A stretch of 64,000 nt of DNA from Piezodorus guildinii (lineage: Eukaryota; Arthropoda; Insecta; Hemiptera; Pentatomidae): NCBI GenBank assembly GCA_023052935.1, contig CM041294.1:105771116-105835115 (forward strand). The letters are read 5' to 3'. Each line of letters begins with the position of its first letter. Positions within the stretch are counted from its first letter, which is position 1. The translations under genes and the position numbers were made by a program. The notes under the pieces were generated by a model. That model searched no databases. It was not told the DNA's origin and was given only the letters and a program-made list of their open reading frames with translations. Positions 1,304 to 26,965 of the stretch are shown here, piece by piece.

Positions 1304-1726
1304 TAATGGAGAAACATTTTTACAAGTTAAAAACTAGATTAAATAAAACAGGAGTGATAACGATGAAATATAATGAAACTCGGAAGAGCTAACATTTTAT
1401 AAAAAAAGATTATCTAATGCACAAATTTGAAGTAATAGAAAGTATCGATTAACATATAAAAATATAGCAGCATATATCAATTTCTACTATTGTGGCAACC
1501 AAAAATAAATAATGATGGAGTTTTGTTGACCGTCGAGAAATTAGATGAGGAAGATGGTTGGGGGTGCGGTCATAAATTAAAAACACACATTTAAAATAAG
1601 TGTTATTTTAATTATGTGCCGACGTTTCGGCCTACAATGTGGGCCTTCATCAGGATTCAACTCCTTTAGGCAACGTCTTCACGTCGAGTCAACCCTGATG
1701 AAGACCAACATTGTAGGCCGAAACGT
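1304..1726 (+). repeat. Direct duplication, copy 1
   Basis: This 423-bp segment recurs at 2755-3177 in the same orientation with very few differences and a constant offset of 1451 bp. It contains about 200 bp of ordinary A+T-rich DNA followed by most of hairpin element A1. Both copies hold the junction between that DNA and the element, so the duplication happened after the element inserted. The shared part stops within the second arm of the hairpin, right after CGAAACGT. Confidence 0.85.
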
Positions 1727-1805
1727 CGGCACATAATTAAAATAACACTTATTTTAAATGTGTGTTTTTAATTTATGACCGCACCCCCAACCATCTTCCT
1801 CATCT
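1514..1805 (+). mobile_element. Hairpin element A1, complete, with 13-bp TSD
   Basis: The element is flanked by the direct repeat AAAAATAAATAAT at 1501-1513 and 1806-1818. It starts with a tail containing GTTGACCGTCGAGAAATTA (about 1524-1542). A palindrome of two ~120-bp arms around a ~35-bp loop near 1674 follows. Each arm carries the block CTGATGAAG, a short G/C stem and CGAAACGTCGGC, in opposite orientations. There is no ORF. The tail and block plan is shared with elements B and C in this window. A long palindrome with a variable-length TSD and an asymmetric tail does not fit a classic MITE; a retro-inserted RNA, perhaps related to Penelope-like elements, fits better. That assignment is inference. 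Confidence 0.75.
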
Positions 1806-1818
1806 AAAAATAAATAAT

Positions 1819-2754
1819 TTTTATGGAAACGTTTAGAACAGTACATATTGTAAGTAGAAAGGGAAGTAAATGGTGTAAGAAGTACTTAACATAGTTTTGG
1901 AGTATTTTTTTCTAGATAATATTGTTAATCAAAGTCGGGTACTAACCCAACGTAGTTAAGTGATTACTAGTTAAGTTATTATGAAGGAAATTTTTAGGAA
2001 AAATTGGGAAGTAATTTCTGATATTATTAGAAGGATAAAAATATTTTTGAAACTTTATTTAACGGAATTTGAATAGAAAATTAAAAAAAGTACAACATAC
2101 ATATAACACTTTTTCTTTATTTTTTTAAAATTATTCCGTAGGCTCTAGAGTTTTGTACACAGTTACGAATGTTCCCTTTAACCCTATACCTCCCAGATCG
2201 GCCGGTGAATCGCCGGTGGTTCTTAAGACGTGCCTAGGCTTCCAAAGGCCACCCCACCGATTGCAGTCAAACGTGAGCTGTGAATAATGTATGAAAAGAG
2301 TCCACCCGAAACCCACCTATTTATCCCACGATATCATTTCCATCCATTTCCTACGATTTACAATTTATGACCTTTCTATTTCCCTTCTTTTTCCCTCAAT
2401 TCGTCCTCGCTTTTCACTCTTTTAAATCACTAGCACTCAAACTTGCTCAAGAAAAACGAAACATTTCAAAAATGACTAAACCGAATGTATACTGTTCTTC
2501 AAATACTAAAGTTTCTAGGAGTTTCCAGATATAGGAATATAATTAAAAAAAAAAAAAAAATTAATACTGAAAGATCTTTCCTTTAACACTGGGTTCGGCC
2601 GATACAACTTCTAATCCAATTAAGGATACCTGCTGGGTGAACAGTAAGAGGATCTTATAACTTTAAAGACAATCCACGGCCGATATAATAGAATAAATAA
2701 TATTTTATTTTGAATTCACTGACAAGAAAAGTATAACTATATAATTATATTAAT
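1819..2754. other. A+T-rich DNA with a weak exon-like island
   Basis: Mostly featureless. On the minus strand, 2195-2283 is richer in G+C and lies between an acceptor-like TTATTCACAG and a donor-like GAG/GTATAG. One frame across it is open, with residues such as DCNRWGGLWKPRH. The family is not recognised, and the segment may be a chance match. The rest shows nothing. Confidence 0.25.
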
Positions 2755-3177
2755 TAATGGAGAAACATTTTTACAAGTTAAAAAGTAGATTAAATAAAAC
2801 AGGAGTGATAACGATGAAATATAATGAAACTCGGAAGAGCTAACATTTTATAAAAAAAGATTATCTAATGCACAAATTTGAAGTAATAGAAAGTATCGAT
2901 TAACATATAAAAATATAGCAGCATATACCAATTTCTACTATTGTGGCAACCAAAAATAAATAATGATGGAGTTTTGTTGACCGTTGAGAAATTAGATGAG
3001 GAAGATGGTTGGGGGTGCGGTCATAAATTAAAAACACACATTTAAAATAAGTGTTATTTTAATTATGTGCCGACGTTTCGGCTTACAATGTGGGCCTTCA
3101 TCAGGATTCAACTCCTTTAGGCAACGTCTTCACGTCGAGTCAACCCTGATGAAGACCCACATTGTAGGCCGAAACGT
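2755..3177 (+). repeat. Direct duplication, copy 2, with truncated hairpin A2
   Basis: Near-identical to 1304-1726. It carries the hairpin element from about 2965, but the second arm ends abruptly after CGAAACGT at 3177 and runs straight into another small fold-back (3178-3352). Differences from copy 1 are single bases, so the duplication is recent or has been homogenised. Confidence 0.85.
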
Positions 3178-3352
3178 ATATTAATTAAAACAATCTCTTT
3201 TCAAATATATACAAGGAAATTAGTATTAGAATTAGAAACGATTCTGATTTTCATGAGATATTCTGAATATGAGGCAAAAGGACCCCGAAACGTCCTTTGT
3301 GTTGTAAATATTGTCATATATAAATGAGAAGAGATTGTTCTAATTAATATAA
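3178..3352. repeat. Small fold-back repeat
   Basis: ATATTAATTAAAACAATCTC at the left is the inverse of GAGATTGTTCTAATTAATAT at the right. The interior contains GGACCCCGAAACGTCC near 3290, a short stem ending in the same CGAAACGTC word used by the hairpin elements. It may be a further diverged subfamily, or the other half of a rearranged hairpin joined to A2. Confidence 0.5.
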
Positions 3353-3415
3353 TACACTATAATAATATTATAATTAATATATTCTTCATGATAGTGAATT
3401 GAAACTAAATTAATC

Positions 3416-3490
3416 TGGGGTTACCTATAACATGGTGGTTAGCATAACAGCCTCCCATGCCTAAGGTCCCGGGTTCAAACCCGCAGGTTT
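3416..3490 (+). mobile_element. SINE A, tRNA-like head only
   Basis: This resembles a tRNA gene 5' part: an A-box-like GTGGTTAGCATAACAG and a B-box GGTTCAAACCC. The same head, with the words CTCCCATGCC and GGGTTCAAACCCGCAGG, starts the full-length SINE at 25287-25573. Here the SINE body is missing after the head. No closed acceptor stem can be drawn, so this is a SINE fragment and not a functional tRNA gene. Confidence 0.65.
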
Positions 3491-3959
3491 ACATTACTAT
3501 TATTTATTTATTATTATACCATGAAAAACAGTAAAACATTGAAACTTCGACTAAAGTTATTTACTAATATGGTAATGTTTTATCTAGAACATGAGTAAAC
3601 ATTTCGAATTTAAACACTTTGAACCTCAAGAGGATGTAAATGTATATTTGAATTACTGGTACCCGAAAAACGTTGATGAAAAAAAAAATCCTGCAATCTG
3701 TAATTTGAAGGAGAGTACAGTAGCTCATGGATAATGGCATTGTGCTGATATTTTTTTTAGTACATTCTTATTTTACTGCCTGATTTTTTAAACCATACAT
3801 CATCCGATATAATTTATCATTTTTTAATTTCTCGTTCCATTCATAAATAAAGTAAGTAGGTAAAGTAGTATTTTTTTTTTTTAAATATAACACAAAATCC
3901 CAGAATACCATCAATCTCACGGACAGTAACTACCTATTAAATTGTCAATTTTAACTGAT
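3491..3959. other. A+T-rich DNA, nothing recognised
   Basis: Homopolymer runs of A and T only. There is no repeat shared with the rest of the window and no coding signal. Confidence 0.5.
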
Positions 3960-4700
3960 CACAATGAGAAACATAAAAACGCTGCAAATTATTACACAAT
4001 AGTTTATTATTTCCAAATAGAAATATTAGGGTATAACTGTTTATACGGCTGTTGATAGGCAATTAAGTAATATGAAAAGCACTAATTCAAAGCATCATAT
4101 AGTAACATTACCACTGATTTCAAAACGCAATATCTAAGCTAGTTGTTAACCAAATTCAATGATTCTTTTTTCATTTGGTCCAAAGTTTAGTTCTCTATCA
4201 AATGACACTAAAATCATGTTTGATATTTATTCATTTATTTATTACGAGAAACGGATTTTTTAAAATTAAAAATAAGTGAGTTATGAGCGTATTTATGTGA
4301 AGAATTTCAATTCTTTTTTCTTTTCTTCTTTTCTCTTTCATTTAATTATTCACGGTTTTTTGGTTAAAAAATAATAATGATTTTTTTTTATCTTCAAAAA
4401 TAACTGAGTTATTGAATAACATCCATTTAATCGACCGCCATTTTAAAACTAACCAGCTGATATCAACGTCGTAGTTTCGGAGAAATTCCGCGGACGGCGG
4501 AGAAACGTATTTGTTTTTATTCGTTATTCGGATTCTAAGCATCTTGTAACGAAGGCTCTCAAATTTTGAGTAGGGGTAATTTTTTATTATTATTATTTTT
4601 TTTTTTGGTCGATTACAAAGGTTGATTATTGAAAATAATAAACCAAAAGATGCACTCTTAAGCCTGAGCAGTTGTTTTGCAATAGGAAACATGGGCGTAC
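3960..4700 (+). repeat. Dispersed repeat DR2, copy 1
   Basis: This segment matches 37890-38105 plus 39035-39500 in the same orientation. Shared landmarks are AAACGCTGCAAATTAT, ATTAGGGTATAACTGTT and AATTAAGTAATATGAAAAGC on the left, and TCTTCAAAAATAACTGAG, GTAGTTTCGGAGAAAT, TATTCGTTATTCGG and GGTCGATTACAAAGGTT on the right. A minus-strand frame of 116 codons (4342-4692) crosses it. The related frame in copy 2 (39223-39498) keeps words such as ITNK and FLRNY but is otherwise eroded. The class is unknown. The uninterrupted copy here shows the empty site of the DR1 insertion in copy 2. Confidence 0.7.
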
Positions 4701-5392
4701 TCAGAGAAACACAGGGGGTCGTGCTTATCTTTATTCATACAAATGTTTTCAACTTAAAACAATTAAATAATTGCAAGGGAAAAAACCATTACTCATTTTG
4801 AAGTTTTGAAGTAAAAAAAAAAAAAATATACAATAAGAATTTACAGCCCCTGATCTATGGTTAAAAAGATAATTTTTTAGTCTGTCAATGACTTTTTTTT
4901 GTGCCTCTTGATTATAATTATTTATTTAGAACACAATCAGTATAAATGTTAGCGTTTTTGATTCTGTACTGCTCTGATATAAGTTATGTCGAATGACCTG
5001 GCAAAACCAGTGAATTATAAAAACATTTCAACGAGATATCTGACTGAAACATACTATATTTAATACTAAAAGTACTCTCTCTTAGAGTACATTTTGTAAA
5101 CCGTTGACAAAGTTCTAAGAGAGCGTGTTCGCCATTTACCGTTAGAGTGCATTTAGCCGGGCAGACAATAAAGAAAGGTTAGCGGCCGTTGGCTTGCTGA
5201 TTTACCGCCGCTGCGGAGGAAGCTTTTAGGCCCGCTCTAAAAGCCATCGAGGTGTGTGCCCTAAGGAGCTTCTGCTAATCCTCCGATAGTCTTCCAGGTT
5301 GTCTCCTTTCCAAAACAGGATTACAGTTCCCTACTCCCCCGGGCTGTTGTCCACAACGGATCGCCCATTATACCTTCGCCTAAGGCTTGTAT
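4701..5392. other. Mixed DNA with a G+C-rich stretch before a tandem array
   Basis: Positions 5110-5400 are G+C-richer, with words such as GCGGCCGTTGGC and CCCCCGGGCTGTTG. They lead directly into the ~0.3-kb tandem array. The stretch could be the upstream part of an LTR whose end and leader were later tandemly copied, but no matching second LTR is seen in the window. No coding frame. Confidence 0.3.
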
Positions 5393-6200
5393 GTGTGAGC
5401 GCGTGAAACAATATCCGGATCTGTTTCGCTTATCCCTTGAAATCGAAAATTTGAAGTAAATATAACAGACTTTGGTGAATTATTTCTTTGGTATCAGAGC
5501 ATGCTATAGTCGAGCACATAACAGGACCATATAATCACCTAATGTATTATAATAGAGAATTTTTTATTTAATTTTGAACTACAGCCCTTTATCCAAATTT
5601 TGGTCCTCCGGGCCGGATTCACAACTGGTTACTTTTTAATTAAATATATGTGTTACTGAGCTATCTAACTGGCTATTACTATATATAAGTGTGTGTGTGT
5701 GTGTGAGCACGTTAAACAATATCCGGATCTGTTTCGCTTATCCCTTGAAATCGAAAATTTGGAGTAAATATAACAGGCTTTGTTGAATTATTTCTTTGTT
5801 ATTAGGGTATGCTATCGTTGAACACATAATAGGACCATCTAATTAACGAATGTATTATAATAGAGAAGTTTTTATTTAATTTTAAACCGGAGTCAATAAT
5901 ACAAATGTTGGTCCTCCGTACCGGATTCACAACTGGTTATTTTTTGATTAAATATTAATGTTATTGTTCTGTCTAGCAGGCTATTACTATATATGTGTGT
6001 GTGTGAGCGCGTGAAACAATATCCGGATCTGTTTCGCTTATCCCTTGAAATCGAAAATTTGAAGTAAATATAACAGACTTTGGTGAATTATTTCTTTGGT
6101 ATTAGATCATGCTAGTGTTAAGCACATAATAGGATCATCTAATTAACAAACGTATTATAATAGAGTATTTTTTATTTAGTTTTGAACCAGAGTCAATTAT
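5393..6200 (+). repeat. Tandem array, three units of about 303 bp
   Basis: Units begin at 5393, about 5701 and 6001, each with GTGTGAGCRCGT followed by AACAATATCCGGATCTG and TTATCCCTTGAAATCGAAAA. Each ends with a GT- or TA-rich spacer. Unit 1 contains TGGTATCAGAGC at 5489-5500, which looks like an LTR-retrotransposon primer-binding site. In units 2 and 3 the same place is mutated. Units differ at many single sites, so the array is old. It may be duplicated LTR-end plus leader DNA, but the PBS reading is tentative. Confidence 0.75.
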
Positions 6201-7211
6201 TCTTATAGTATATTTTTCTGTTTCCTTTAATTTATCGATGATGCTATTATTATGTCAGATTCTTTTCTATTGATAAAATACTATATACGATGTTCTATGA
6301 TGAAAAGAAAACGTTGATATGTTGATAAACTATTGATATATAAATATATATGATAAACAACCTTATTCAATAAAATATTATTATCATTATATTAATCGGT
6401 TATATAACAACACCAACATTAGTAGAGTAAAATATCCCTGCGTTATCTTATCCATGTTATATTTCTTATATTTATATGATAACCAGCTTCATATCGTTTC
6501 AGAAACGTATGCTATCTACGGTATTAAATAGCATAATATTAAAAACAAAAGCATGGGAAATATAGATCAGCCAAATGTATCTTATTATTCCGGTTGTAGG
6601 ATCCGAGAAGATCCATTTATTATAATTCTCTTTTCCATGCCTGAAGAAACATTGCATGAAGAAAAACAATGAAAAAAACTACTTCCCTAGTGAAATAAAA
6701 TGAAAAATGAAGCCATCTTCGAGAATAATTAAAACAAACAGATATAAAATTTATAAACAAAGGGAGACGGGATAAAGCCGTTTAGAGTTACACAATAACG
6801 CACTATTCTTCCATTAAGATAAATGACTAGATAAAGGAAGGAGCGATATTGGAGTTGCCCGTTCGATAGAACGGATCACGGCCATGCACAAATCCGTCCG
6901 TCGATACTTTATATTACACTGCTTCCAATATATATATACACACAATAATTCTTATTTATATTTATTATATATTTACTAGTAAGGTGTATTGGATATTAAC
7001 ATATAAGGTGCCAATATTTGAGATCAGGAAAACACCTAAAATAGTGGAAAAACTACTTATTTAATGTTTATACTTCGCAAAAAAAAAAAAAAAAAGAAAA
7101 AAAAAAAAAGAAAGATACTTCATTATTAGTGTTTGAGCCTGAACATCTTTTTTTTCGGTATTAGAACATTAAGATTTAAATTACTTTCTAATATGAGGTA
7201 AACAATTTTTG

Positions 7212-7212
<1 letters not shown>
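6201..7212. other. A+T-rich DNA, nothing recognised
   Basis: Contains a poly-A tract around 7079-7110 and short AT runs. No gene or shared repeat was found. Confidence 0.45.

Positions 7213-7285
<73 letters not shown>
7213..7285. repeat. (TA)n microsatellite
   Basis: An uninterrupted TA dinucleotide run of about 36 units. Confidence 0.97.
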
Positions 7286-7289
<4 letters not shown>

Positions 7290-7442
7290 GAATAGTGTAG
7301 TAATTAACTAGAAAATGTTATACAATAGTCATTCAACTATAATAATAATAGTATTTATCTATATACACTTTTTCATTCATTCTTAATAAATATAATATAT
7401 ATGTAAATATTATATTTTCCTTTCCTTAAAAGATTAAAATCT

Positions 7443-7815
7443 TTGGCGGTGACTGCCTGCACATTGGGTGAAGAGTTCGCTCATCCCAATATTTCCTGCC
7501 ATTTGCTTTACGAGACCACAGTATTCCGTCCATCTTGTAGATCTTGTCTACCCATCTTCTTTGCCAGCCTCTGCTTTTTTTTATATCCAAGGGAATTCAT
7601 TCAGTCAATTTCTAGGCACAGTTTTCGTTGTTTTTTCTCATTAGATGCCCAGCTCGTTGCCATTTCAATTTTTTTTTTATATGCCTGATTTTATCAGTGA
7701 CTCCGGTATCTTTCCTTATTGTTTGACTGATGAGCTTTTGACTTTTTCTTACACCTAGCATGTTCCTCTCCATTGCTCACTGACATTTTATAATTTTTCT
7801 CCCTCATCGCACTTT
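7443..7815 (-). pseudogene. LINE reverse transcriptase C-terminal remnant
   Basis: On the minus strand, pieces of a non-LTR retrotransposon polyprotein tail can be read in more than one frame. First comes AMERNMLGVRK (start codon of this word at 7773), with RKDTGVTDKIRHIKK after it. After a frameshift in an A-run comes KWQRAGHLMRKNN, then LTEWIPLDIKKKQ and RRWVDKIYKMDGILWSRKA. These match the well-known tail of insect endonuclease/RT LINEs (family pattern AMER-MLG, then KLKW-AGH, then RW-D-I). Only the region after the RT palm is left: the catalytic FADD motif, endonuclease and 5' end are absent. Stops and frameshifts make it non-functional. The plus-strand frame at 7443-7688 is a shadow of it. 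Confidence 0.75.
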
Positions 7816-9834: not shown

Positions 9835-10071
9835 TAACATTTTTTTTGCTAAACTCTTTACTTTTTGAACGGAACATTATACATCTATTTTTTCTCATTT
9901 CTCCTTTAGTTGGAATCGAATTCGTTCGTCGAATGGTTAATTATGTCGAATCTACTAAATTAAGGGTATTTTAGAGGATGAAGATTTAAAATATAGGCAT
10001 TTAAAACCCGTCAGATTAATTAAATCAGAATGTAACCTATATGATATTAAAGGTCAGTAAATTTTACCTCG

Positions 10072-10076
<5 letters not shown>

Positions 10077-10134
<58 letters not shown>

Positions 10135-10376
10135 CTTTTAATTTATATCTTTTTATTTTTTTTTCTTTAATTTGTATTTTATTCATTCGTTCTGTTATCA
10201 ATTTAATTCATTATTCAGTTCATAGGAATAATTATAAATCTATTATCGTTAGGGGTGTCTCGTGTATGAGACTATACCCCCACTTTTTCCATTGTTACCA
10301 GTTGTAATAATTTATTTTGAAAAACCATACATGACTCACGCAGCCGATCTGGAAATAAAGAAATTAAAAAAAAAAA
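10077..10376 (+). mobile_element. 5'-truncated LINE 3' UTR with 12-bp TSD
   Basis: The segment is flanked by TACCTCGATATA at 10065-10076 and 10377-10388. It ends with CAGCCGATCTGGAAATAAAG, a poly-A signal (AATAAA) and an A-run directly before the second TSD copy. The same 3' end occurs on the minus strand at 15553-15930, where it follows a Jockey-type RT, so this is a short 3' piece of that family. The 5' end begins at an (AT)n run, 10077-10133. Removing it and one TSD copy restores DR1 exactly, as expected for target-primed reverse transcription. Confidence 0.85.
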
Positions 10377-10565
10377 TACCTCGATATAGCGAGTTTAATC
10401 AAAATCGTTAGAACCGGTTATGAAAAAATCGTAAAAAGGTGCAAAATGCAAAGTATAAATACAATGGCTCTTCTGGTTTGCCGATTTTAATGAAAAAATT
10501 GCTGTAACATCTCGGGCTTATAGTTGTCTTAAATATGAAATTTTATTTTCGTTTTGGTGCTAGAC

Positions 10566-10605
10566 ACCACACACACACACACACACGCGCGCACACGCGC
10601 ACACA
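10566..10605. repeat. (CA)n / (CGCA)n microsatellite inside DR1
   Basis: A CA run turning into CG/CA alternation. It lies at the position of the TG tract in the other DR1 copies. Confidence 0.9.
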
Positions 10606-10736
10606 TAGATCTTGTGTTGGTTATTTGGACCCAGGAGACCCTAAAACGTGTATTCCCGTAGAGAATTGGTATTAACAATTTTCACGATCGCAATAGTTTC
10701 CCTCACTATATATTTCATACATATCAATGTATAAAT

Positions 10737-10862
10737 AATCAGGAATCAGTTTAAGCGTTTATACTGGGCAAGGCTCACTGATGACCTGATGATGGCTCAC
10801 ATGTTTGAGCCGAAACGTATGCAAAATTAAAATATTTGTTCAAACGACTACTCCTAATTATG
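10737..10862 (-). mobile_element. Hairpin element B, partial
   Basis: Carries AATCAGGAATCAGT on the left, then CCTGATGATGGCTCAC and TTTGAGCCGAAACGTATGC, as in the second arm of the B elements at 26.4-26.9 kb. Most of the first arm and loop is missing, and no clear TSD or tail is seen. Confidence 0.6.
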
Positions 10863-12093
10863 TTTTTCAATAAGCTGTATTTAACGAGAGAAACTTCCCT
10901 TATTGAAATATTCCCATATGAGATCAGCATATTCAAGAATACAAATTACTCAAGACAACTAAATTGTACACTTTTATAATGTGATGCTGGGTCCTAGAAT
11001 AAATTACTACTAATTTTTATAATTTCAATATTTGATATATTAGCTTTAATGTAAAAAAAAAAAAAAAAAATAGATTATATAACTTCGGTTAATAAATCTA
11101 TAACGAAGAAGGGAATTTAATTCCTTTTTTGGAGAAGAGAATTTAATTTAATAGCAAATTACATTTAATCTGCATTGATTTTTTTTTTTTTTTTTAGGTG
11201 GTATACTATTCTAGTAAAAGATAAAAACAATTGAAAAAAAAAAACTTTACTTTTTCTTACTAAAAAAGAACAAAGTTAGAGGGCACTCACCCGGAAAAAA
11301 ATCAACAAGCCATTCGTTGATGAAAGTTAAATACAGAGAACATTGTGCGGTGTCACCCCTACCCCCTTCATTGTAGTTAAGGTCATACTTTTAATCAATA
11401 GCCAGAAACAGCTAACCTCTGGAGCTTTGAATAGTAAGTTTCAACATAAAAGGATAAATTCTTTTAATTAGATTTCAGCTTTCAAGTACTTTGGTAAGTC
11501 AAGAGTTTATGATGTAATCATATTTAATGCAACGTTGAACAAGTGAATAATTGGTTCACTGTTTGTGGATAATTTTTTACTGGATTAATTAATTCCGTAT
11601 AAATCATATTCTATACATCACATATAATCATAGCCCTATGCACTATAAACTCAGTATAAAACTATGAAGATATCAAATGAAGATTAATGCCATCCTAGAG
11701 TAGAGGACTCATAATAAAAGCATCAATTCCAGTTGGAGGACCCAAAGACAAGATGAATGGTCTCAGTGCCAGACACCTTATCGTCCGATGGAGCGATAAA
11801 CCTGTTCCGTCCTGACAAAAGATTCAACATGTTTTTTGCTTCTTTTTTTTTTCTCCCCTCGTAAATTTCAAACAAAACGAGAGAATATTTGCGTAGATTT
11901 TATCTGGTTATAAATTAGGAGCGAGGCTATGTTAGTACAATAATTAGATGGAGATATACAATATGACATAACCTATATTGTTAGCATAAAGAAAAAAATA
12001 ATACTGATAGGCTTATTACATTTAAATAAAAAGAAAAGTAAAGATCAGAAATTTAGAAAAAAGCTGATTATTAGTAACAAACAATTAGTAAGG
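10863..12093. other. A+T-rich DNA, nothing recognised
   Basis: Poly-A and poly-T runs at about 11054-11070 and 11180-11195. No repeat shared with the window and no coding signal. Confidence 0.45.
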
Positions 12094-12108
12094 TTCAGAT
12101 TATAATCA

Positions 12109-12390
12109 AAGGTAGAAATATTCAAGAGATATTCGTTTTTTAAAATATTTATATTTTGCCTACGTTTCGGCTCAAACTTGTAAGCCATCATCAGGGCATT
12201 ACTAAGCCTTGTCAAGCATAAACCCTAGAATCAAACATAGAGTTTATGCTTGAGATGGCTCAGTAATGCCCTGGTGATGGCTCACAATTTTGAGCCGAAG
12301 CGTCGGCAAAATTAGAATATTAAAAAAAAACCACTAACTCCTGATTATTTCTACCTATGATAATTTCAACAGTCGACTATACATCTTCAA
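12109..12390 (-). mobile_element. Hairpin element B3, complete, diverged
   Basis: The palindrome carries CTACGTTTCGGCTCAAAC and GCCATCATCAGGGCATTA on the left, with the complementary words on the right. The second copy of the core has mutated to CTGGTGA and CCGAAGCG. The tail ACAGTCGACTATACATC lies at the right edge, so the element reads on the minus strand. It is flanked by an imperfect 15-bp duplication (13 of 15 match), at 12094-12108 and 12391-12405. Mutations in both arms show that it is older than B1 and B2. Confidence 0.7.
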
Positions 12391-12477
12391 TTTAGAATAT
12401 AATCAATTAGAGGACCTTCTTATAACTATAGATTAAGAAGAAAAAATTTCTAAAATTATTAAAAAAATGTTAGGTGT

Positions 12478-15552: not shown

Positions 15553-15930
15553 CTTTTAAATTTCTTTATTTCCAGATCGGCTGCGTGAGCCATACATGGT
15601 TTTTTAATATAAAAAGAATAGTTATTACAACTGGTAACAATAGAAAAAGTTGGGGTATAGTCTCATACACAAGACACCCGTAACGATAATACATTTATAA
15701 TTATTCATGAAAATGGAATAATGAATTGAATTAATAACAGAACGAATGAATAAAATACAAATTAAAGAAAAAAAGAAAAGTAATGAATATACAAAATAAT
15801 ATGAAGTTCGCTACAAGAATATAGTTTATAAAAAAAATAAATAAAATAAAATAATAAAAAAACTATATAAAAATAAACCAACAAGATTAAATAATATGAG
15901 GCTTATGCTTATAAAACGAAATAATAATAT
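15553..15930 (-). mobile_element. 3' UTR of Jockey-type LINE (Jockey-1)
   Basis: Follows directly on the minus strand after the RT remnant at 15931-16310. It ends with GGCTCACGCAGCCGATCTGG, AATAAA and a short A-tract (read at 15553-15570). The same 3' end is found at 10077-10376 and 40208-40400, so three members of this family lie in the window. Confidence 0.8.
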
Positions 15931-16310
15931 TTACAAAATGTCTTGTAGAAGCCTGGGTTTGAGCCTGTGAGATGAAGTTGGAACTCCTATGTTGTATGCC
16001 ACTTGGTATGGTAGCTGGGAGTGGTATTTCCTGAAACGGTTTTTTATTAAATCTTCGATGTATTGTATGTATGTAGCTCGCGGTGTAGTTGACTATTTCT
16101 GATGAACCATGGGGCATCTACAGCTATTCTTAATATTTTGTTTTGAAATACTTGTAATTTTTTTCTTGTCGTTGAGGAAGCAGCTCCCCACAGTTCACAA
16201 CCATACATAAGTAGTGGCCTTAATATAGTTTTATAAAGAAGAATTGTTGTTTCGGGTTTGAGATTTGATTTTCTATTGAGGATCGCATAAATACTGTGAA
16301 AGTCAATATA
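15931..16310 (-). pseudogene. Jockey-clade LINE RT C-terminus (Jockey-1)
   Basis: On the minus strand the frame reads AILNRKSNLKPETTILLYKT, then RPLLMYGCELWGAAS, KLQVFQNKILR, DAPWFIRNSQLHRELH. After one frameshift it continues with EDLIKNRFRKYHS and ends SHRLKPRLLQDIL followed by a stop at 15931-15933. This is the typical end of a Jockey-clade reverse transcriptase after the palm (family pattern YG-ELWG-AS, then FQ-K-LR, APW--N, HRELH, RLK). The frameshift and the absence of the endonuclease, the palm and ORF1 show a 5'-truncated dead copy. It joins its own 3' UTR without a gap. Confidence in the clade is high; the exact family cannot be named from sequence alone. Confidence 0.85.
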
Positions 16311-16676
16311 TTAGTAACCACTCTGTTATCAATGGTATATAAAAAAAAAATAGTGTTTAACGAAATATCGAAAAGCGTTATACTTGTGGGAAAGCAAGCA
16401 ATGATAAACGAAATCGAAAATTCTGATATTTCCTAGACTATTCATTCGCAGCCAACTCACCTTCCACCAAACTCAGTTAAAAACCAAATGTTCGAAAATT
16501 CCTTTGATCTACGTTTCGAATGAACCTAGAACGCTTACTCCTCCGTAACGCTGACCAACTTTTTTGTTGTTGACTTTCCGTTATGTTAAACAACGCTCAA
16601 AACGTTCTTGTAACCACCATGTGATTCATAATGAATGTCTATAAAAAAAGTTTTAGTTTATCAAAAACATGGTAGT

Positions 16677-16802
16677 ACATTATTATTCCGAAACTATCAT
16701 ACGTTGTATTTAGCCTTGTTTATACTAGTAGCTAATAGCTTAATGGCTTCTTGTATAAACAAGGCTAAACACAACTTATGATAGTTTCGGAATAATGAAG
16801 TA
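16677..16802. repeat. Short palindromic element
   Basis: ATTATTCCGAAACTATCAT and TTAGCCTTGTTTATAC on the left are mirrored by GTATAAACAAGGCTAA and ATGATAGTTTCGGAATAAT on the right. The arms are about 50 bp, separated by about 25-30 bp. No TSD was recognised. The arms differ at a few sites. It could be a small MITE or a hairpin-forming remnant; the CGAAAC word is present but not the CTGATGA word. Confidence 0.7.
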
Positions 16803-16864
16803 GTACAATATCTTCATAAACTATAATTTTTTAATTCATTTTTAAAAATTCATTATGAATAACT

Positions 16865-16965
16865 ATAAAAATAATCAGGAAACGACCATAATATTTTATT
16901 TAATCTGCCAACGTTTCGGTCCATTCGGTTAGCCATTAATAGGACTAACATGTATTATATCTGAG
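16865..16965. mobile_element. Hairpin element fragment
   Basis: Has AATAATCAGGAAAC, CTGCCAACGTTTCGGTCC and TTAGCCATTAATAGG, corresponding to the outer part and core of one arm. The second arm is missing and the CATCATCAGG word has decayed. Confidence 0.5.
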
Positions 16966-18375: not shown

Positions 18376-19475
18376 TTTTTTTATTATTTATTTTTTTATT
18401 TTATTTAACTCCCTGCCCTGCCTGTTAGACAATACGGGTATTGAAACAGTGGGATGGTAAGCAGGACTGCGTAACAATCCACTGTTGGTATTAAAGCGGT
18501 AACAACATTATCCTGTGCTCACAGGTCGCATCAGCGGCTGTCAAGAACTGGGCCTTCCTCTCTCCTCCTCCGGTCCATGTGGGCAGCAGCTCCGCCTCCT
18601 CTTCCTCGCCTGTCCAGAGGTCCTCGTAGGGCAGGTCTTCGGCAAATATTGAAGTGGGCGGGTCCAATAGCGGTTTTCCACCCATACACAAAATGTTTGT
18701 AGTACAGGTAGTTATGCCTATTGACCAGCCGGGGAAAATCGTTTTCTGGGAGGGCGTAGATACCTGTATCCCTCGATAATTTAACCCTTAATGAATCGAA
18801 GGCGGTGCAGTCCATGATGACGTGCTCAGCAGTTTCCGGGACGTTGCAGCTAGGGCAATGTCTATTCCATGGTGATTAAACTTTGAGCGGAACCCCCCAT
18901 GCCCTGTGAGGAATTGCGAGAGCCAGTAGTCCGGGAGGACCCACTTTGCTTCTAGTCGTGACCGGACAGTGGGGAAGTATTCACTAAGAGATGAACCTTT
19001 TGGACTGGTCACCTACCTACGGTTCCACTCTTCTATTGTATCCTCCCGGATGATTGCTTTCCATTTCGATTGGTTCTCGCTAATCCTCAGTCAGCTAATC
19101 CTAATTCTCCATCCTATATTGTCATGGTAGCTGGGTACCAAAGCCTCCAGAAAGCGCCTCCTACACGACTAAGGCCGTTCAATGCTAGGGCCACTCTATT
19201 CCTTAAACACTCCAGGTGGGGGGTGACGTTAAACCTCTTCCAAACCTTACGTCAAGGTGTGTGACCACCTCCTCACTGGGTCGTATTCTTGAGCCCTGTA
19301 TAACTAGATTAATAGGGTGGGCCCTATCCGTTGTACCTTTTAAGAGAACGGCCTGGGTCTTTGAAGCAGCCATCTTTAACCGTTCTGCTTGTTGTTTCAA
19401 GCCGGCTCTGCTGTTACATTACACCACAACAGCCAAGTCATCAATGTAACCAATCTTATCGATAAAGGCTCATTT
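18376..19475 (-). pseudogene. R1/Jockey-type LINE remnant: RT palm to C-terminal zinc motif
   Basis: On the minus strand, in order: the RT catalytic block GYIDDLAVVV (YIDD codons at 19437-19448), then KMAASKTQAVLLKG, INLVIQGSRIRPSEEV and LNGLSRVGGAFWRL. After an internal deletion come DTIEEWNRR and YWLSQFLTGHGGFRSKFNHH. Following a frameshift near 18870 comes SCNVPETAEHVIMDCTAFDS, the cysteine/histidine cluster near the end of such LINEs. FLTGHG and CNVPETAEH are hallmarks of R1-type and related insect LINEs. The 3' end runs into an A-rich tail (T-rich at 18376-18408). Several stops, at least one frameshift, the deletion and the missing 5' half make it dead. The short frames on both strands here are pieces or shadows of it. 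Confidence 0.85.
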
Positions 19476-22400
19476 ACTTCATGTATTGGCCAATACAGTT
19501 GTAAATATCAATAAATAAATTTAATAAAAAATATCTGAACAAAACAATCCAGATGATAATATTTTTATAAATTGTAATCTTCAAATTTCTTGACTGAAGA
19601 CGAGAGGTAATTAATTTTACAACAGAAAAATTACACGAATTTTCTACCTTTAACCGCGACTTTATTAACTCCTGGATTTCGTTTTTTCTAGTTATCTTAG
19701 AACCTAACTACTTAAATTTATCTACATTTCCAAACGTATATCCTGAGACATAAATATCACCAAGATCGTCATCGTACCTAAAACTAATTATATATTTCGT
19801 CTTATTTATTTCAAGCCCTATACCTTTACTGGTTTTTATTAAGATAATTGAATTAAATTAAATAGTTTCAGCGCCTTCGCACAACAGTACCAAACCATCG
19901 GTCATTTTCCCTGACCCTTCCATATTCAAAGTCTTTTACCTGGCCAAATCTCAGTGAATATCGACAAAACAAAGAATAATTATAATTAATAAGGTAAAAT
20001 ATATATAATGACTAATTGCTTTACGATAAGATTCAACTATGTATATCCACCCGACACCAGCTAAAATTGTGGTTGTTTAAGGTGACTTACCAATCTATTA
20101 TGATGAATTTGAATACTGTTGTTAGTAATAATCAATATTTACAAATCTAACTACAAAGTTATTTTACAACTCGCTTTATGATATTTGCAACATCACAACA
20201 AGCAGGCATATTGGAACTTTGGTCTGAGTGAAGAAGAAACGATGTTATCTAGGGACCATTTTCCCTGACCGAACTACGAATTTTCTTAGTTTTTCATATG
20301 TTTTTAAAATCCCTGACTTTTCCAGGTTTTCCCTGTTGCTTGACACCCGGCTAGAACCTGAATTAAGCAAAAACAAATGCGCAATAAATTAATATTTGCA
20401 ACTAACTAGAAATATTAAAAAAAATAAAAATAAATACATATTGGAAATATGATTTGATTACCCGGTCTGAGCGCGGTGGTTGTTATCGACGAGATCACTG
20501 ATTTTTCTAGTGCACAAATTCCCCGTTATCCATTTCCCGACCGACCCATACAAAATTGTAGCTCCAGCGGAACCGGCAAATCCGTGCCCGGGCAGTAAAT
20601 GTAAGAAAGATTACTTTGAATAGAAGAGCGATTGTTGGGGGTAGGGCTTTCCCGGTAATACCAACCCTGAGGGGGGATGCTTTCTATTCAAGTCGCGATA
20701 GGTAAGGGCCGTTATTACCTGTCGTTATCTTTAGAAATATATCTCTCCAGGATTACTGGACCCATACAGGCCTCCCTAATAATTTCAGCCCTTTCTTCTT
20801 TGAATCAATTCTATTTTCCCTTATGACCAATGGAATCGGAGGGCCATCTTCATAGGGCGCTTTTTCTTTTGTAAACTGATTTCCCTAAGGGGATATCTCT
20901 GATAGAGGATTTTCAAGTAATGGGCGAATCGTTCTATCCTAAAAAGATACTCATTTTCCGCTTTTTCTGGTTATCAGATTAATCCCTAAGATAGTAGGTA
21001 AAGTTTGCCAAAGGTTAAGGAAACCTCAATACAGAATACAAGTGATTTTATTTCCAAACCTCCATTTACTATACAAATATATAGACGTATTCGTCAAACG
21101 TATTCGGAATTAACTATCATTCTGCTATTTAATTGTTTTTAACTCTTTTATTTTCATTTTTTAGGAGTTGTTACACCCTTTATAATGTTAGAAGGAAAAG
21201 CTAAAACCAAAAATCACGACAATAATCATTCTATTTTAACGTTTTGCCAAGTTCATTCACGAAAAACAGTTCTCAAAAATTCAGAAATAACCAAGGGTTT
21301 ATTCATTTGAGGAATTGTTTTCTCGTTTGTTTAATAATCATTATTTGATTTTTAACTTTTTTTTTTTTATTGTCACTTTGTGCTTTTATAATTTATTGTT
21401 ATATCAGCCTCCCTTTACTCACCCATCCAAATATTCTCATATTTTTTTTAACCCTTCAACCATTTATCTTTAAAAAAAAATCATACATAGCGGCTGTTGG
21501 ATCGTTCAGTTTTCAGTTTAACGCCTAATTACAAAAAAAAGTTAGGTATCAGTTATACAAGGAAGAAGAATTATGTATAATAAAAACGAAATTATGTCGA
21601 AGATAATGATATTAAAATTTGAAACCATTTTTCTCCCACATTACAGTAACCCTGCAAATGCGTGCATTTATTTCTACGCGTACCATCTTGCAAATAACTT
21701 TTTGGTTACACTGGATCATTAAGGCTGGAATTTGATTTTATTAATGATGGTATTATTTGAAAGCCTATTAATTACTAATAATGATACATTAATTTGTAGT
21801 TATCAAAAGCGGCATAATAAACAACCAAGTGTGTTCGGGCGCCAGTTAAGACAGAGAGAGGGTTAAATTTCCCCTCCCTGAGTCTTCCATTTATCTTTGA
21901 TTGAATTTAATATTCAATCCGTAGCGGTAAAAAAATGAATCTTAATGTTCTCATGATGGTTAGGCGGGCAAAAAAAAAAACAACAACAAAAAAAACAGGG
22001 CTAGTTCCGTCACCACTACCAACAGGGTATAGGGCTGTCCCCTACAAAATATATTATCTACCTACCCCTCGCTAAATACCTCCACCCCTTCAAGACTAAT
22101 AAATCACGGGGAAGCGAGACATGACGACCTCCAACGAGATGATCCAAGGTCCAGAGGCAGTTTATTAGAACTTTGTGGGCCGCTTTACCCTAATGTCGAG
22201 GCGTTATGTCTTTATAAAGCAGTATCTCAGCCCCAGATTTTAATAATTCCCTACCCCCTAATACCGGCCTTCCTCATAAAGTCCCCAGCCTTCGGATTTA
22301 CTTAATGCCTTACGGGACCACGGTCTTTCCCAGGCCTCATAAGAGAATTCACTTTTTTATCCAGGCGCATCGATTAAGATTTGAAACAGGCACGTTCATT

Positions 22401-22966
22401 TAAGTACAGTATTTAAGAGGGTATAGAGGTGAATTGAATTTTAAAAAATGTATGAGGAATATAGCATATCATGAAGAGCTTAAAACAGTAAAAGTGTTAA
22501 AATTGAATATAGTGTAAAAATGGTATTAAAACTTTACTTCCATACACCTGAAATCGGACTTATAATTAAATTTCAGAATAAAGGACACTCCATCCCTTAA
22601 TACTAATGCCAACTAAGTTAAACACAAGAAAACATTAAAATTGTAACACAATTCTATCAACTCTTAAGTGAAAACTTTTTTAACAAATACGTTTAAGTAA
22701 ATTCTTCACTAAATCAATCTTCTAGATTTGGTTCCTGATTGAGTATTCTATGTTATAAAAAACATCTAAAAAAAAAGGCATTCTATCAACAGCGATTTAG
22801 GAAAAACTTAATTTTAAAAAGTAATTAAAATAGTATACAAAATAACGTGCATACTAAGCATGTTTCGAATGCGCGATATGTAATGTTCTAATTATACTAC
22901 AACATTTGTCTGAATAGATTAGGAAATTGACGGTTATAACAAGGCACAATTTAATAAAGTCAGAAC
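19476..22966. other. Unique DNA with two G+C-richer islands
   Basis: The islands are 20460-20720 and 22000-22350. The first contains, on the plus strand, an acceptor-like TTTTTCTAG, a 92-bp open stretch 20511-20602 and a donor-like GTAAGAAAG. The second holds homeodomain-like words (TTTATTAG, TTTATAAAG) but no frame. Neither island is repeated in the window. They may be regulatory DNA or small exons; the family is not recognised. The remainder is A+T-rich. Confidence 0.3.
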
Positions 22967-22978
22967 AAATAAATGTAT

Positions 22979-23291
22979 AATTGTGGATGTAATTAGTTGA
23001 TCGTTGAGAATTACTGGAAGGAATTAGTCCGGATGGCGGTCATTAAATGAAACAACTAAATAGTTTCAACTATTTTATTGTTTGCCAACGTTTCGACCCC
23101 CTTTGTGGGTCATCATCAGGGCGCATGGTGAGAGAATGGAAATACTAATGGAAATAACTCAGTTTCCATTCTCCCACCATGCGCCCTGATGATGACCCAC
23201 AAAGGGGGTCGAAACGTTGGCAAACAATAAAATAGTTGAAACTATTTAGTTGTTTCATTTAATGACCGCCACCCGGACTAATTCCTTCCAG
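22979..23291 (+). mobile_element. Hairpin element C1, complete, with 12-bp TSD
   Basis: The TSD AAATAAATGTAT lies at 22967-22978 and 23292-23303. It starts with a tail containing GTGGATGTAATTAGTTGATC and GTTGAGAATTA. The palindrome is 23014-23291 with arms of about 125 bp around a ~20-bp loop near 23150. The arms carry GCCAACGTTTCGACCCCC and GGGTCATCATCAGGGCGCAT on the left and exact complements on the right. The arms differ at only a few bases. The arm sequence differs from subfamilies A and B apart from the core block, but the tail aligns with theirs. No ORF. Confidence 0.8.
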
Positions 23292-23303
23292 AAATAAATG
23301 TAT

Positions 23304-25070
23304 CCATTGCTGTCGATAAGATATAGTTTGACAATGATAAAATAAAGTATTTTTTTAAAATTAGCACATAAAACCCAATCAACTTAATCACAAATCTGGA
23401 CAGAATCAGAGTATCACATAAACAGAGAGAACTCAATACTCGAGGATGTTTTAACAAATGCACAAAGTTACTTGAAATCACTCATCATCTAACAAATTTA
23501 TTCAAATTTACAACTGTATTTGATAATACAACAAATATATATGTGAACAGAGAAATTATATGAAAAAACTTGTAGGTAAACTACCCATAGGCAGCACTCC
23601 AGTAAATATTCTAAATCAAAAGTTCGCGCGGAAATCTCCATCACATACATCTCCAACATTGTCAGGAATAGAAGAGAAAGCAAGGATTGAAACTAGTGGG
23701 TTAGGGTGGGAAAGGAGTTTTATTTTAATTTAAATACAAAGTACACATCAACTATGGGTATTTGATCAGGCGAGGGAAATCCATATAACCTATTTGAACA
23801 ATTTACACAAACAAATACAAGTTGTTACCGCTATTAGTTTCGTTTATTATTCGAACATAAATTTGTTTATGGGCGGCAACGGCTCTCATATCGAAATATC
23901 ATCACGTCAGGAATGGCTTCGTAGTTAGGATCGAGTAAGGGTCAGAAGCCACTTAAAAGGATAATATTAATTAAATGGTGTGGTTGGGAAAGCCTGAATA
24001 ACATTTTCCGCAAAAAAGGAGAAGGGACGAGAAAGGGCTAAAAGGGTCCCGGAGGATTAGAAAGGGGGAAGAAGGATTGGAAGGATTTATCTAGAATTAC
24101 AAATAGTGTTAGTTAATCAGGCCGTTGGGGTCTGCTTCTAAACAATAGCGGTCCTTACCTTCCCTCCCAGAACTGTAGTTACATCACAATGCCCTAGCAG
24201 CTTTTCCAACCATTCCGAATAAATACTCTTCAGCTGGTAATAAATAATTTATAAATCAAGTAGGAGGTTATATAATTTTTAATAATAATAAAAAAATACA
24301 ATTCAGGCAGTCATAAGGAGTGCCGATAGAAGTTAAATAGTCCGTTTAAGTAGATTATGTTGAGAATGCATGTTTGTTTTTTTTATTATTGTTTCATTTA
24401 CATGTAAAACATTAAAACCCTGTAGAGAAATATCATCTTGAAGTAAGTCATCGTAATCTGTATGTGACTGTATAAGTTGGTGATACACATAGCACTTTTT
24501 TTTTATGGACCTACCATTGTATCAAGGAAATTCAGACATTTAGGAATAAGCTTTATAGTTGTTTCACAGAGCTAACCTCAGTTTCCTAACTTCAGTTTAA
24601 CCAGTAATGAAATATACATTGTACGTGTACTTAATTGAAATCTATATTATTAAAATACATTTAATTTTCACATGTCATATTTCTATACTTGTATGACCAA
24701 GATATTCGATTTCGCTTTGCTACGATTTAAATATTGACAGTAAGATCATCATGACTTTGCTTCGCATATTTAAATGTTTTCATGCTAAGTAATGTTTAAA
24801 TAATACTTACAAATATCGATATTTTAGAGTCAAGAATTAAGATATTCATTACATTAACTTTATATACAGTAAGAGGTAAGCTCTAAGACATAGTTTATCT
24901 ACCATGTCTTTACTCATTCATTTGCAACTGATATAAAAGAATTGATATCGCTATCCCATCTCTAATAGACAGGTATACACAGAGCGCATGCGCCAGTCCT
25001 AATCCTAAATCCTAGAGCATGTTAGTTTCATAATCAAAGCTTTTAATCCTGCTCAAAGGTGGTAGGTGGC
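23304..25070. other. Unique DNA, A+T-rich, one purine-rich island
   Basis: Positions 23880-24200 are richer in G+C and purines (runs of GGGA and AAAGGG). No gene or window-internal repeat is seen. The 60-67-codon minus-strand frames around 23.3-23.7 kb have no domain. Confidence 0.35.
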
Positions 25071-25274
25071 CCTTAGTTATGGCGTCCTTCGTATGGGAAG
25101 TAAAAATGTGGTCCTGAGCCAGTGCGATGTCAGGTAATCATTATAGATCCCTAGCCTAATTAAACCTGGTTTGGCAGAATTTAGGACTAGCATTGTAGCA
25201 TCGTCCGATTAGCAACAGTAGGATAAAGTAATGTAAAATGAATCAACAAACAAAACTAAAAAAACAAAAACAAC
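25071..25274 (+). mobile_element. SINE A body, plus-strand copy, 5'-truncated
   Basis: Shares with the minus-strand SINE next to it the words CCTTAGTTA, GTGCGATGTCAGGTA, ATTTAGGACT and GTAGCATCGTCCGATTAGC. It then has an A-rich tail with AACAAACAAAAC. The tRNA-like head is not recognisable upstream. Single-base differences show that it is an older copy. Confidence 0.75.
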
Positions 25275-25286
25275 AACTAATAAATA

Positions 25287-25573
25287 TTGTTTGTTTATTC
25301 GTTTAACGTCACTTTTATGCAACTATGGCTAATCGGACGATGCTACATACAGTCCTAAATTTTTCCTATCCAGGTTTTATTAGAATAGGGATGTTTAACG
25401 AGTACCTGACATCGCACAGGCTCGGGACCACCTTTTAACGTCCCCTCCGAAGGACGGCGTAACTAAGGATTTTTTACTCCCATTAAAAAATCCTAGGACC
25501 ACCTGCGGGTTTGAACCCGTGACCTTTGGCATGGGAGGATGTTACGCTAGCCACCCAGCTACAAGTGATCCCC
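25287..25573 (-). mobile_element. SINE A, full length, with 12-bp TSD
   Basis: Flanked by AACTAATAAATA at 25275-25286 and 25574-25585. On the minus strand it begins with a tRNA-like head (A-box region GGTGGCTAGCGTAACA, B-box GGGTTCAAACCCGCAGG). The body follows (GTGGTCCCGAGCC, GTGCGATGTCAGGTACTCG, GCATCGTCCGATTAGCC), then an A-rich end. Length is 287 bp. It has inserted right behind the tail of another SINE A copy in the opposite direction, so the pair forms an inverted repeat. The perfect TSD suggests a fairly recent insertion. Confidence 0.88.
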
Positions 25574-25585
25574 AACTAATAAATA

Positions 25586-26351
25586 GAAATTAAAAATTGT
25601 GCATACCCTTACTCAATATTTTAACATAACGGAGAAAGTAAATATGCCGTCAAAAGTTTCAAGATTTAATCATATAAACTAGAATGTTGAAGTGAGAAGT
25701 AAAATCACTTGAAGTAGTTCCTATAGACATATCGCCTCAACATCCAAAAGCAATTTATTTCCAATTAAAATACTGATATTGTCATTGTTTTACCTCCAAA
25801 ACATTTACTATATAGAGTCTATTAAAGAATAAATCCAATGATTGCTAAAAATATAAGTAATCATAAAAAAATGACAAGACAATTATTTAAAAAAAATATA
25901 AACATAATATCTCGAACGAATAATTATATATTTTTTAAATATTAAATAAAATGCTTTTAGTGGAGTTATACACCTCACCACAGTATAAAAACTAATAATC
26001 CTCTAATGGAAACCCCATTGTCCGAGGTCTGGAGCGGTTATTATGCACATGCAGTTAACGTTCCCATTTTACGGCATAGTAAAACCGAGTTTAGGGTCAC
26101 ACTAAAACTGAGAATACTTGGGATTGAATTACTTCAATGGGTAGGCTGTCTCTTTGCCAATACTGCTGTACCCATAACCCAGTGTGCTAGGTTGGAAAAT
26201 CCAATTTGCTTGAAAAAGGTTCAGCAGTAAGTTTTTAATTTTTTCAGATCCGCGGGGAGTGTAACATACATGGATGTTATAACAATAAATCCCGAATAAA
26301 TAAAAAAAAAGTTTTTAAATATATTATGTGAAGTAAATAATTCTGATTTAG
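25586..26351. other. A+T-rich DNA, nothing recognised
   Basis: A 74-codon plus-strand frame at 26006-26230 lies in slightly richer sequence. It has no known domain, and I could not support it as a gene. Confidence 0.35.
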
Positions 26352-26363
26352 GTTTTTAAAAAT

Positions 26364-26599
26364 TATAGGTGGAATAGTCAGGAATCAGTCATTTTTTGAA
26401 ATTTTTTAAATTTTGCCAACGTTTCGGCTCAAGCTTGTCAGCCATCATCAGATAAACTCCCTTTAAGCTTGGACATGGCTCAGTAATGCCTTGATGATGG
26501 CTCACAAGCTTGAGCCGAAACGTTGGCAAAATTAAAAAAATGACTGATTCCTGACTATTCCACCTATAGTAGTTTCTACAGTCGACTATACATCCTCAA
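26364..26599 (-). mobile_element. Hairpin element B1, complete, with 12-bp TSD
   Basis: The TSD GTTTTTAAAAAT lies at 26352-26363 and 26600-26611. Outer ends of the palindrome are TATAGGTGGAATAGTCAGG and its inverse. The core is GCCAACGTTTCGGCTCAAGC and GCCATCATCAG, then the inverse with CTTGATGATGGCTCAC. The tail ACAGTCGACTATACATCCTC is at the right edge, giving minus orientation. The loop part of the left arm is shorter than in B2. Confidence 0.82.
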
Positions 26600-26668
26600 G
26601 TTTTTAAAAATAATTATGGTTTCGACATATTTAAAAATATTACTAACTTTAATAATAAACTGGTAAAA

Positions 26669-26951
26669 TTATTATAGGTGGAATAGTCAGGAATCAGTCA
26701 TTTTTGAAAAGTTTTTAATTTTGCCAACGTTTCGGCTCAAGCTTGTGAGCCATCATCAGGGCATTACTGAGCCATGTCCAAGCATAAACTCACACTAAAA
26801 TGGTTTATGCTTGGACATAGCTCAGTAATGCCCTGATGATGGCTCACAAGCTTGAGCCGAAACGTTGGCAAAATTAAAAACTTTTCAAAAATGACTGATT
26901 CCTGACTATTCCACCTATAATAGTTTCTACAGTCGACTATACACCGTCAAT
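26669..26951 (-). mobile_element. Hairpin element B2, complete, with 14-bp TSD
   Basis: The TSD ATAAACTGGTAAAA lies at 26655-26668 and 26952-26965. The arms run to about 125 bp each and are nearly perfect, including GCCAACGTTTCGGCTCAAGC and GCCATCATCAGGGCATTAC with exact complements. The loop is about 10-15 bp near 26799. The tail ACAGTCGACTATACACC is at the right. It lies only 57 bp from the end of B1 in the same orientation, as an independent insertion with its own TSD. Confidence 0.85.
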
Positions 26952-26965
26952 ATAAACTGGTAAAA

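Follow-up and report, generated by a model that had tools for sequence, protein, structure and literature searches.

Palindromic short insertions in Piezodorus guildinii as probable stubs of spliced Penelope-like elements

The question raised by a stretch of 64,000 nucleotides of Piezodorus guildinii (contig CM041294.1, positions 105,771,116 to 105,835,115 of the forward strand; hereafter the window) is how short, non-coding DNA comes to be inserted as a hairpin with a tail at one end. The window harbors five such insertions of three sequence families (A, B and C), each consisting of two inverted arms with a hammerhead-ribozyme core per arm and one asymmetric tail (Table 1). In our view these are probably non-autonomous insertions of Penelope-like elements (PLEs), made by copying a spliced mRNA from two sites into the two strands of a cleaved target.

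Hairpin elements of the window and their ribozymes

The hairpins, their arms, tails and target-site duplications (TSDs) had been delimited in an earlier note on this sequence, and all are found where that note placed them. Four of the five TSDs are exact; for the old element at 12109 the hairpin and a repeat are present, the repeat (given as 15 bp with 13 matching) being imperfect in either alignment (12/13 or 13/15 matching). An equally permissive search returns repeats of at least 12 bp at 37 of 1,500 random places in the window. The five TSDs are rich in A+T (57 of 64 positions vs 69% window-wide, matched by 0.2% of random sets), the G+C content of the window being about 31%. The word CGAAACGTYGGC occurs 18 times with at most 2 mismatches (2.5 expected), and the tail word 5 times (0.5 expected). 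Inside the elements the arms are identical at 110/113 positions (A), 76/78 with 2 gaps (B1, in which most of exon 1 is missing from the left arm), 119/120 (B2), 126/128 (C) and 99/119 (the old 12109 copy). Across families they are alignable only near the ribozyme; beyond it gaps are numerous, and the three pairings examined had 7 to 11. The window has no open reading frame (ORF) of at least 120 aa, and its elements are non-autonomous members only. Pfam gave no match in 8 window ORFs scanned, from 57 open stretches of at least 75 aa, and a crude motif scan of the window for GIY-YIG was likewise without a match.

The earlier note had further pointed to core words common to the otherwise different arms of A, B and C. 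These words form a minimal hammerhead core, namely CTGATGA, stem II, GAAA, ACGTY and then GGC; the motif without helix III (CTGATGA-stem II-CGAAACGTY) is present in both arms. The ACGT may allow two RNAs to form a common stem III. Since both ribozymes of an element point outward, its arms are arranged head to head. Pairing in stem II is mostly kept across families (86% of cells). Minimal forms without helix III are what has been described for the ribozymes of PLEs (PMC6155905, PMC7229834, PMC7761336). Matches to microRNA families in Rfam lie below the family thresholds and were discarded; probably any long hairpin gives such matches.

The genome (1.20 Gb, 434 contigs) was searched with exact patterns and with reversed patterns as controls. 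The core pattern CTGATGA-N4-34-CGAAACG has 28,335 exact matches (14,221 + 14,114); its reversed control has 175 (76 + 99). Viral and prokaryotic contigs gave no match to the pattern and plasmids none to element B2, in keeping with a eukaryotic source. Ribozymes and tails were mapped in 59 stretches of contig C1 (loci with L numbers) around the first matches listed (about 100, two chance-looking ones omitted), a choice that makes the sample non-random over the genome. One A copy of the window (at 3170-3180) and an arm of family A in L044 (~1610-1625) stop no more than a few bases from the predicted cleavage site GAAACGTC^GGC, possibly a trace of cleaved templates. Ribozyme cleavage as the determinant of arm ends was not adopted, the hints (A2, L044, L017 and L026) being loose.

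A full-length relative and the exons of the short elements

The Penelope-like autonomous partner that the earlier note had suggested looking for is present at L023. This locus consists of two ORFs of 973 aa placed head to head; each outer end bears a ribozyme, the two lying 7.6 kb apart, and there is a single tail and a TSD of 14 bp. The protein has a YVDD reverse transcriptase (RT) motif by eye and a GIY-YIG match in Pfam (E 7e-4, 20.3 bits, under the cut-off of 22.6); an A fragment of L033 has matches to RVT_1 (E 0.001, 19.3 bits, under the cut-off of 29.6) and to GIY-YIG (E 9e-4). The mobilising relative thus combines RT and GIY-YIG in one ORF as PLEs do, though weakly by Pfam cut-offs. The protein has 44 homologs, most with RVT_1 and some with GIY-YIG; the named insect homologs (ant, ladybird, psyllid and firefly) have 26-34% identity, with RVT_1 listed and GIY-YIG not. 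Within its own genome, 25 of the 47 scored places (of 10,995 candidates) span residues 1-973 stop-free, 16 of them at 98-100% and 9 at 88%, and 11 of the 47 have stops. The scored places include 8 minus-then-plus ORF pairs less than 10 kb apart (examples in Table 1), of which L023 is the one inspected for tail and TSD, and two same-strand ORF neighbours, both on C3. Judged by its predicted protein and its ends, L023 is a full-length PLE with an RT/GIY-YIG ORF, inserted twice head to head.

A loose pattern matched 135 arms, which were classed by the sequence upstream of CC-CTGATGA: 47 have a short exon, 47 a pyrimidine-rich sequence ending in AG, 12 an ORF donor (11 in L017, 1 in L026), and 29 are others that include chance matches and decayed arms. 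We note that the script label 'unsplicedC' on A and B arms denotes just a similar pyrimidine-AG end. The exons before the ribozyme are GTTTATGCTTGGACATGGCTCAGTAATG in B, AGTTTCCATTCTCCCACCATGCG and variants in C, and end in GTCTCAGAGTCAA in A. In the intron-bearing copies of B and C, an exon of 23-28 nt is followed by a donor of the GTACGT type; in most cases 243-282 nt then lead to a pyrimidine-AG acceptor that adjoins the ribozyme on its 5' side. The donors are GTACGT or GTATGT, with GTAATA in L016 and GTACTA in one arm of L059, and 10 of the 15 donor sites after B and C exons lie 243-282 nt upstream of the ribozyme acceptor.

The intron-like stretch of B and C is exactly missing in the short elements, a GT-AG removal that can be read from the genomic sequence. 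The short elements therefore look like cDNAs of spliced sense mRNA, extending from its 5' end to internal start sites of reverse transcription. The C exon variants ending in CCAGACG, CCATGCG and CAATACG each exist in spliced and in intron-bearing form, which argues for several independent splicing events. Genome-wide, the exact B junction is found 4,309 times (2,194 + 2,115), its reversed control not at all. Family A has a clear acceptor and acceptor-retaining Penelope copies of its own. By eye, the short arms end at about AGTTT, which is similar to an arthropod initiator, TCAGTT, and the arms would thus reach the capped 5' end. Drosophila Penelope has an intron in its 5' untranslated region that is retained in genomic copies. 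The short B elements and the short C elements each appear to be stubs of a Penelope family of their own, so that the single superfamily of structured-RNA insertions assumed in the earlier note does not quite hold.

How the palindromes may form

For the position of tails, 39 head-to-head pairs were scored (34 from sampled loci and 5 from the window). By script, 29 pairs have one tail. An exact direct repeat of at least 12 bp is found near the ends of 17 pairs, and in 16 of these one repeat begins at most 4 nt from the arm end and the other lies 26-36 nt farther out, as with the ~30-nt tail of PLEs. The TSDs of the 16 copies measure 12 bp (three), 13 bp (seven), 14 bp (four) and 15 bp (two); the one exception, the repeat of L015, lies inside the arms and is spurious. 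Outside this count, B2 (14 bp) and L017 (13 bp, by eye) add further cases. The one-sided tail asserted from the window thus recurs in the sample; the TSD length, asserted to be variable, keeps to a narrow range of 12-15 bp and does not vary broadly. Anatomically, each arm spans the part of a PLE between the minimal hammerhead ribozyme and an arm end, here called site 1, and one of the two arms continues to a site 2, the intervening 26-36 nt being the tail.

Two loci properties bear on the number of priming events. In L033 (14-bp TSD) the left arm, ~2.24 kb long, is tailless, and the tail is on the right arm, which measures 0.52 kb. A tail on a much shorter arm is not given by simple self-copying, and two primings are favoured for this reason. 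Both arms could be classed by splice state in 33 of 41 pairs, and none of them mixes a spliced with an unspliced arm, a count resting on one L017 arm that the script labels unspliced and that is an ORF-donor junction by eye. Both cDNAs of an element would hence usually derive from the same RNA or RNA species. In vitro, the PLE protein of the anole cuts and extends both strands, with internal starts at two sites that bound the tail (PMC11167929).

The proposed sequence of events is as follows. A capped PLE mRNA would begin at an initiator-like (T)CAGTTT... and then be spliced. The RT/GIY-YIG protein would bind the spliced mRNA and cleave both strands of an AT-rich target, 12-15 bp apart. Reverse transcription would begin within the RNA, one target strand priming it at site 1 and the opposite strand at site 2, and both cDNAs would be extended to the RNA 5' end, where their 3' ends would be joined head to head, often with a few extra bases. 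Spliced mRNA would give a stub of ~235-315 bp; unspliced or read-through RNA would give a longer palindrome, often 5'-truncated and at most a head-to-head pair of full-length PLEs. That priming occurs twice, once on each target strand, appears rather likely to us. The palindrome more likely forms during insertion, when two cDNAs are joined head to head, and the RNA template need not be a hairpin. Of the target-primed insertion of a structured RNA proposed from the window, the target-primed retro-insertion is supported in Penelope-like form, L023 having the same ribozyme, tail and TSD; the structured template is not needed.

One locus suggests a further product. L017 (2262-5560; G000:C1, ~1194260-1197560) is an inverted array of eleven ribozyme units with a period of 296 bp inside one 13-bp TSD, and looks like a single 3.3-kb insertion. 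Seven units point leftward and four rightward, the last unit at the right end has no tail past it, and the centre is occupied by filler in which CGTTGCAACGTT-like words recur. A unit corresponds exactly to a single exon that starts at CC-CTGATGA, takes in site 1, the tail and the ORF start, and stops at CTCCAG, where L023 reads on with GTGACT, a donor-like site within the ORF. A tandem transcript spliced repeatedly, or a back-spliced circle copied round, would give such an array. We regard it as an even call whether the scheme extends to PLE integration in general, as a coupled two-sided target-primed reaction on sense mRNA (usually one molecule) with joined cDNAs, each cut strand using one of two internal start sites. 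Splicing of the 5' intron would then decide between thousands of dead-end stubs and full elements, and back-spliced or repeatedly spliced exon 2 as in L017 would lead to ribozyme arrays, a possible route from PLE to retrozyme-like elements.

Several observations weigh against this scheme. With respect to splicing, the donors of L016 (65 nt) and L053 (638 nt) deviate in distance, those of L015, L052 and L054 have no acceptor within the reach of the script, and no donor was found for family A among the sampled copies; splicing, cap site and ribozyme activity are all read from genomic DNA. With respect to tails, the script finds none in 9 of the 39 pairs and two in one (L015); a looser map assigns tails to some of the nine (e.g. 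L008, L012 and L028) and two to L029. Folding lends no support to a stem-loop in the tail. For the ribozyme, two stem II pairs are changed on both sides in 11 distinct rows, and because 175 of 500 shuffles reach the same number, covariation is weak. Rfam reports no hammerhead at its gathering threshold; one C arm taken alone scores 12.6 bits (threshold 48.5, E 1.8), and one B arm taken alone has no hammerhead match. In the anole system, start sites are reported not to differ between top and bottom strands (PMC11167929), which makes the assignment of one site to each strand in a single event our own step. Tails on the longer arm (L055, L023, L059, L010 and L057) fit either one or two primings. 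Near-equal arms in the long copies L038, L047, L004, L057 and L023 are predicted by self-copying as well; they are easier to explain by it, or by one RNA read twice to the same end. A later deletion within the tail arm of L033 could mimic its pattern, which lowers our confidence in two-site copying and raises that in self-copying.

This last alternative (snap-back), in which one primed cDNA folds over at its 3' end and serves as its own template to give a head-to-head palindrome, is the strongest rival, and we consider it unlikely as a general mechanism. The study of rotifer Penelope elements favours self-priming on an antisense template and leaves a sense template possible (PMC3846280), and snap-back would account for the short loops that accompany the near-equal arms of the long copies just named as well as for the common splice state of both arms. 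However, under snap-back the copied arm should be the shorter of the two, and tailless unless the first arm is tailed. L033 displays the opposite, unless its tail arm was later shortened, and disfavours snap-back; in L047 the tail is on the shorter arm too, by only 15 nt. Copying would moreover have to end at most 4 nt from site 1 in 16 of the 17 repeat-flanked cases. An antisense template conflicts with an intron removed in sense orientation, which makes sense RNA the template of the spliced copies. L031 (1240-1600) joins a left B arm with a tail to a right C arm, both complete 5' ends facing each other across ~20 nt of filler, an arrangement not expected from self-copying. L031 is the sole exact match to a B-C hairpin pattern in the genome and has no clear target duplication, points that again count against our scheme; we take it as a hint of two RNAs and not as proof.

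A master gene for a hairpin RNA, transcribed whole and inserted from its tail like a short interspersed element, is improbable. The 4,309 copies of the B junction and the constant layout of the five window elements would suit such a gene, yet the arms are 97-99% alike within the four younger window elements while families A, B and C differ, which argues that the arms are renewed together. Loops also vary among copies of one family, and one-tailed palindromes extend to copies of 4-8 kb (L023 and L038). Still less probable is an origin as metazoan retrozymes, in which a PLE would copy small circular RNAs with ribozymes. Every unit does have a ribozyme, and the one-exon units of L017 are as would come from a back-spliced circle or repeated splicing, but the window elements are inverted and not tandem pairs, L017 is the only array among the 59 loci, the ribozyme is of the minimal PLE form and not of canonical type I, and B and C have exon junctions of PLE origin. 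Transposase-moved foldback or miniature inverted-repeat DNA transposons, which share long inverted arms and target duplications, can be dismissed almost entirely for the copies examined, in line with the earlier note, with no search aimed at a transposase made: ends are asymmetric (tail one-sided in 16/17), duplications measure 12-15 bp, and the RT/GIY-YIG relative L023 has the same ends.

Known elements and further features of the window

Inverted pseudo-long terminal repeats (pLTRs), an optional tail, target duplications and minimal ribozymes are already described for PLEs (PMC3846280, PMC11167929, PMC8969392, PMC6155905). Endonuclease-positive PLEs of the Penelope/Poseidon type are reported to combine an RT and GIY-YIG ORF, a minimal hammerhead ribozyme, AT-rich targets and short TSDs with an optional ~30-nt tail at one inverted pLTR and head-to-head inverted repeats (PMC11167929, PMC3846280). 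In contrast to these, whole elements can be palindromic here, the tail is at one end in 16/17 of the copies with a clear flanking repeat, and there is a short, highly abundant class that appears spliced; the rotifer elements, as described, have inverted pLTRs and retained introns (PMC3846280). Short, abundant, non-autonomous Penelope elements are also recorded for Heliconius butterflies (PMC6685494). Metazoan retrozymes without LTRs are likewise small, non-coding, ribozyme-bearing and thought to be moved by PLEs, but they are described as tandem copies with canonical type I ribozymes, and the passages concerned mention neither inversion nor PLE exon junctions (PMC7229834, PMC7761336). What appears new here is the source of the short elements, and exon junctions as unusually direct sequence evidence on the template strand, with some on priming. 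The titles and abstract openings searched, which do not cover the 2014 PLE-ribozyme, 2021 permuted-PLE and 2008 Penelope-regulation papers, describe no spliced, palindromic, pLTR-only PLE insertions, which is no proof of novelty.

The mechanism of PLE insertion is still an open question, and the hairpin stubs offer a rare view of how PLEs copy themselves into DNA. Judging from their exon junctions, the template of a large class of insertions was a sense mRNA; the one-end tail rule and the shorter-arm tail of L033 point to two priming events, which would tie the start sites observed in vitro (PMC11167929) to the genomic inverted repeats. Short stubs naturally preserve the start sites, 5' ends and splice choices of past insertions, and thousands of them are available for counting. 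Their transcripts, should there be any, would be long hairpin RNAs and, speculatively, a source of silencing RNAs.

Table 1. Coordinates of the hairpin elements, related remnants and exon junctions in the window, and of ORF pairs elsewhere in the genome.
Feature	Position	Strand	Details
Element A	1501..1818		13-bp TSD exact, 1501-1513/1806-1818; tail 1514-1544, sense on minus strand; cores 1622-1653 (-), 1695-1726 (+)
Second A copy (A2)	2965..3177		within 98% local duplication ~1297-1730 / 2748-3181; ends abruptly at GAAACGT
Degraded B-type element	10735..10880	+	left-arm end, right arm with ribozyme core, tail hardly recognisable
Old B-type element	12097..12406		imperfect TSD; cores 12162-12194 (-), 12271-12303 (+); tail ~12359-12393
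One-arm remnant (B-like)	16862..16960	-	decayed ribozyme core
Element C	22967..23303		12-bp TSD exact, 22967-22978/23292-23303; tail 22979-23014; cores 23088-23119 (-), 23186-23217 (+)
C exon 1 (AGTTTCCATTCTCCCACCATGCG) joined to CC-CTGATGA	23161..23185	+	putative splice junction 23183/23184
Element B1	26352..26611		12-bp TSD exact, 26352-26363/26600-26611; tail 26569-26599; cores 26419-26451 (-), 26491-26523 (+)
Element B2	26655..26965		14-bp TSD exact, 26655-26668/26952-26965; tail 26923-26951; cores 26727-26759 (-), 26833-26865 (+)
B exon 1 (GTTTATGCTTGGACATAGCTCAGTAATG) joined to CC-CTGATGA	26803..26832	+	putative splice junction 26830/26831
Minus-then-plus ORF pairs (examples)	C7:112330154(-)/112337760(+); C5:80650973(-)/80655706(+); C2:184322191(-)/184328862(+)		

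The second A copy is part of the local duplicate and no separate insertion. By eye, it abuts another inverted-repeat element (~3176-3350). Further inverted-repeat elements, in which no ribozyme core was seen, are located at 16620-16870, 25071-25468 and 59090-59392; the first of these has, by eye, a near-identical repeat around ATTCATWATGAAT on its flanks. ORF pieces at 15887-16310 and 18531-18875 (-) resemble C-terminal parts of long interspersed elements by eye and have no Pfam match. A ~300-bp repeat is present in three tandem copies at 5388-6295, and the region 60580-63953 consists of 112-bp tandem satellite arrays bordered by inverted arrays of a 21-bp repeat.

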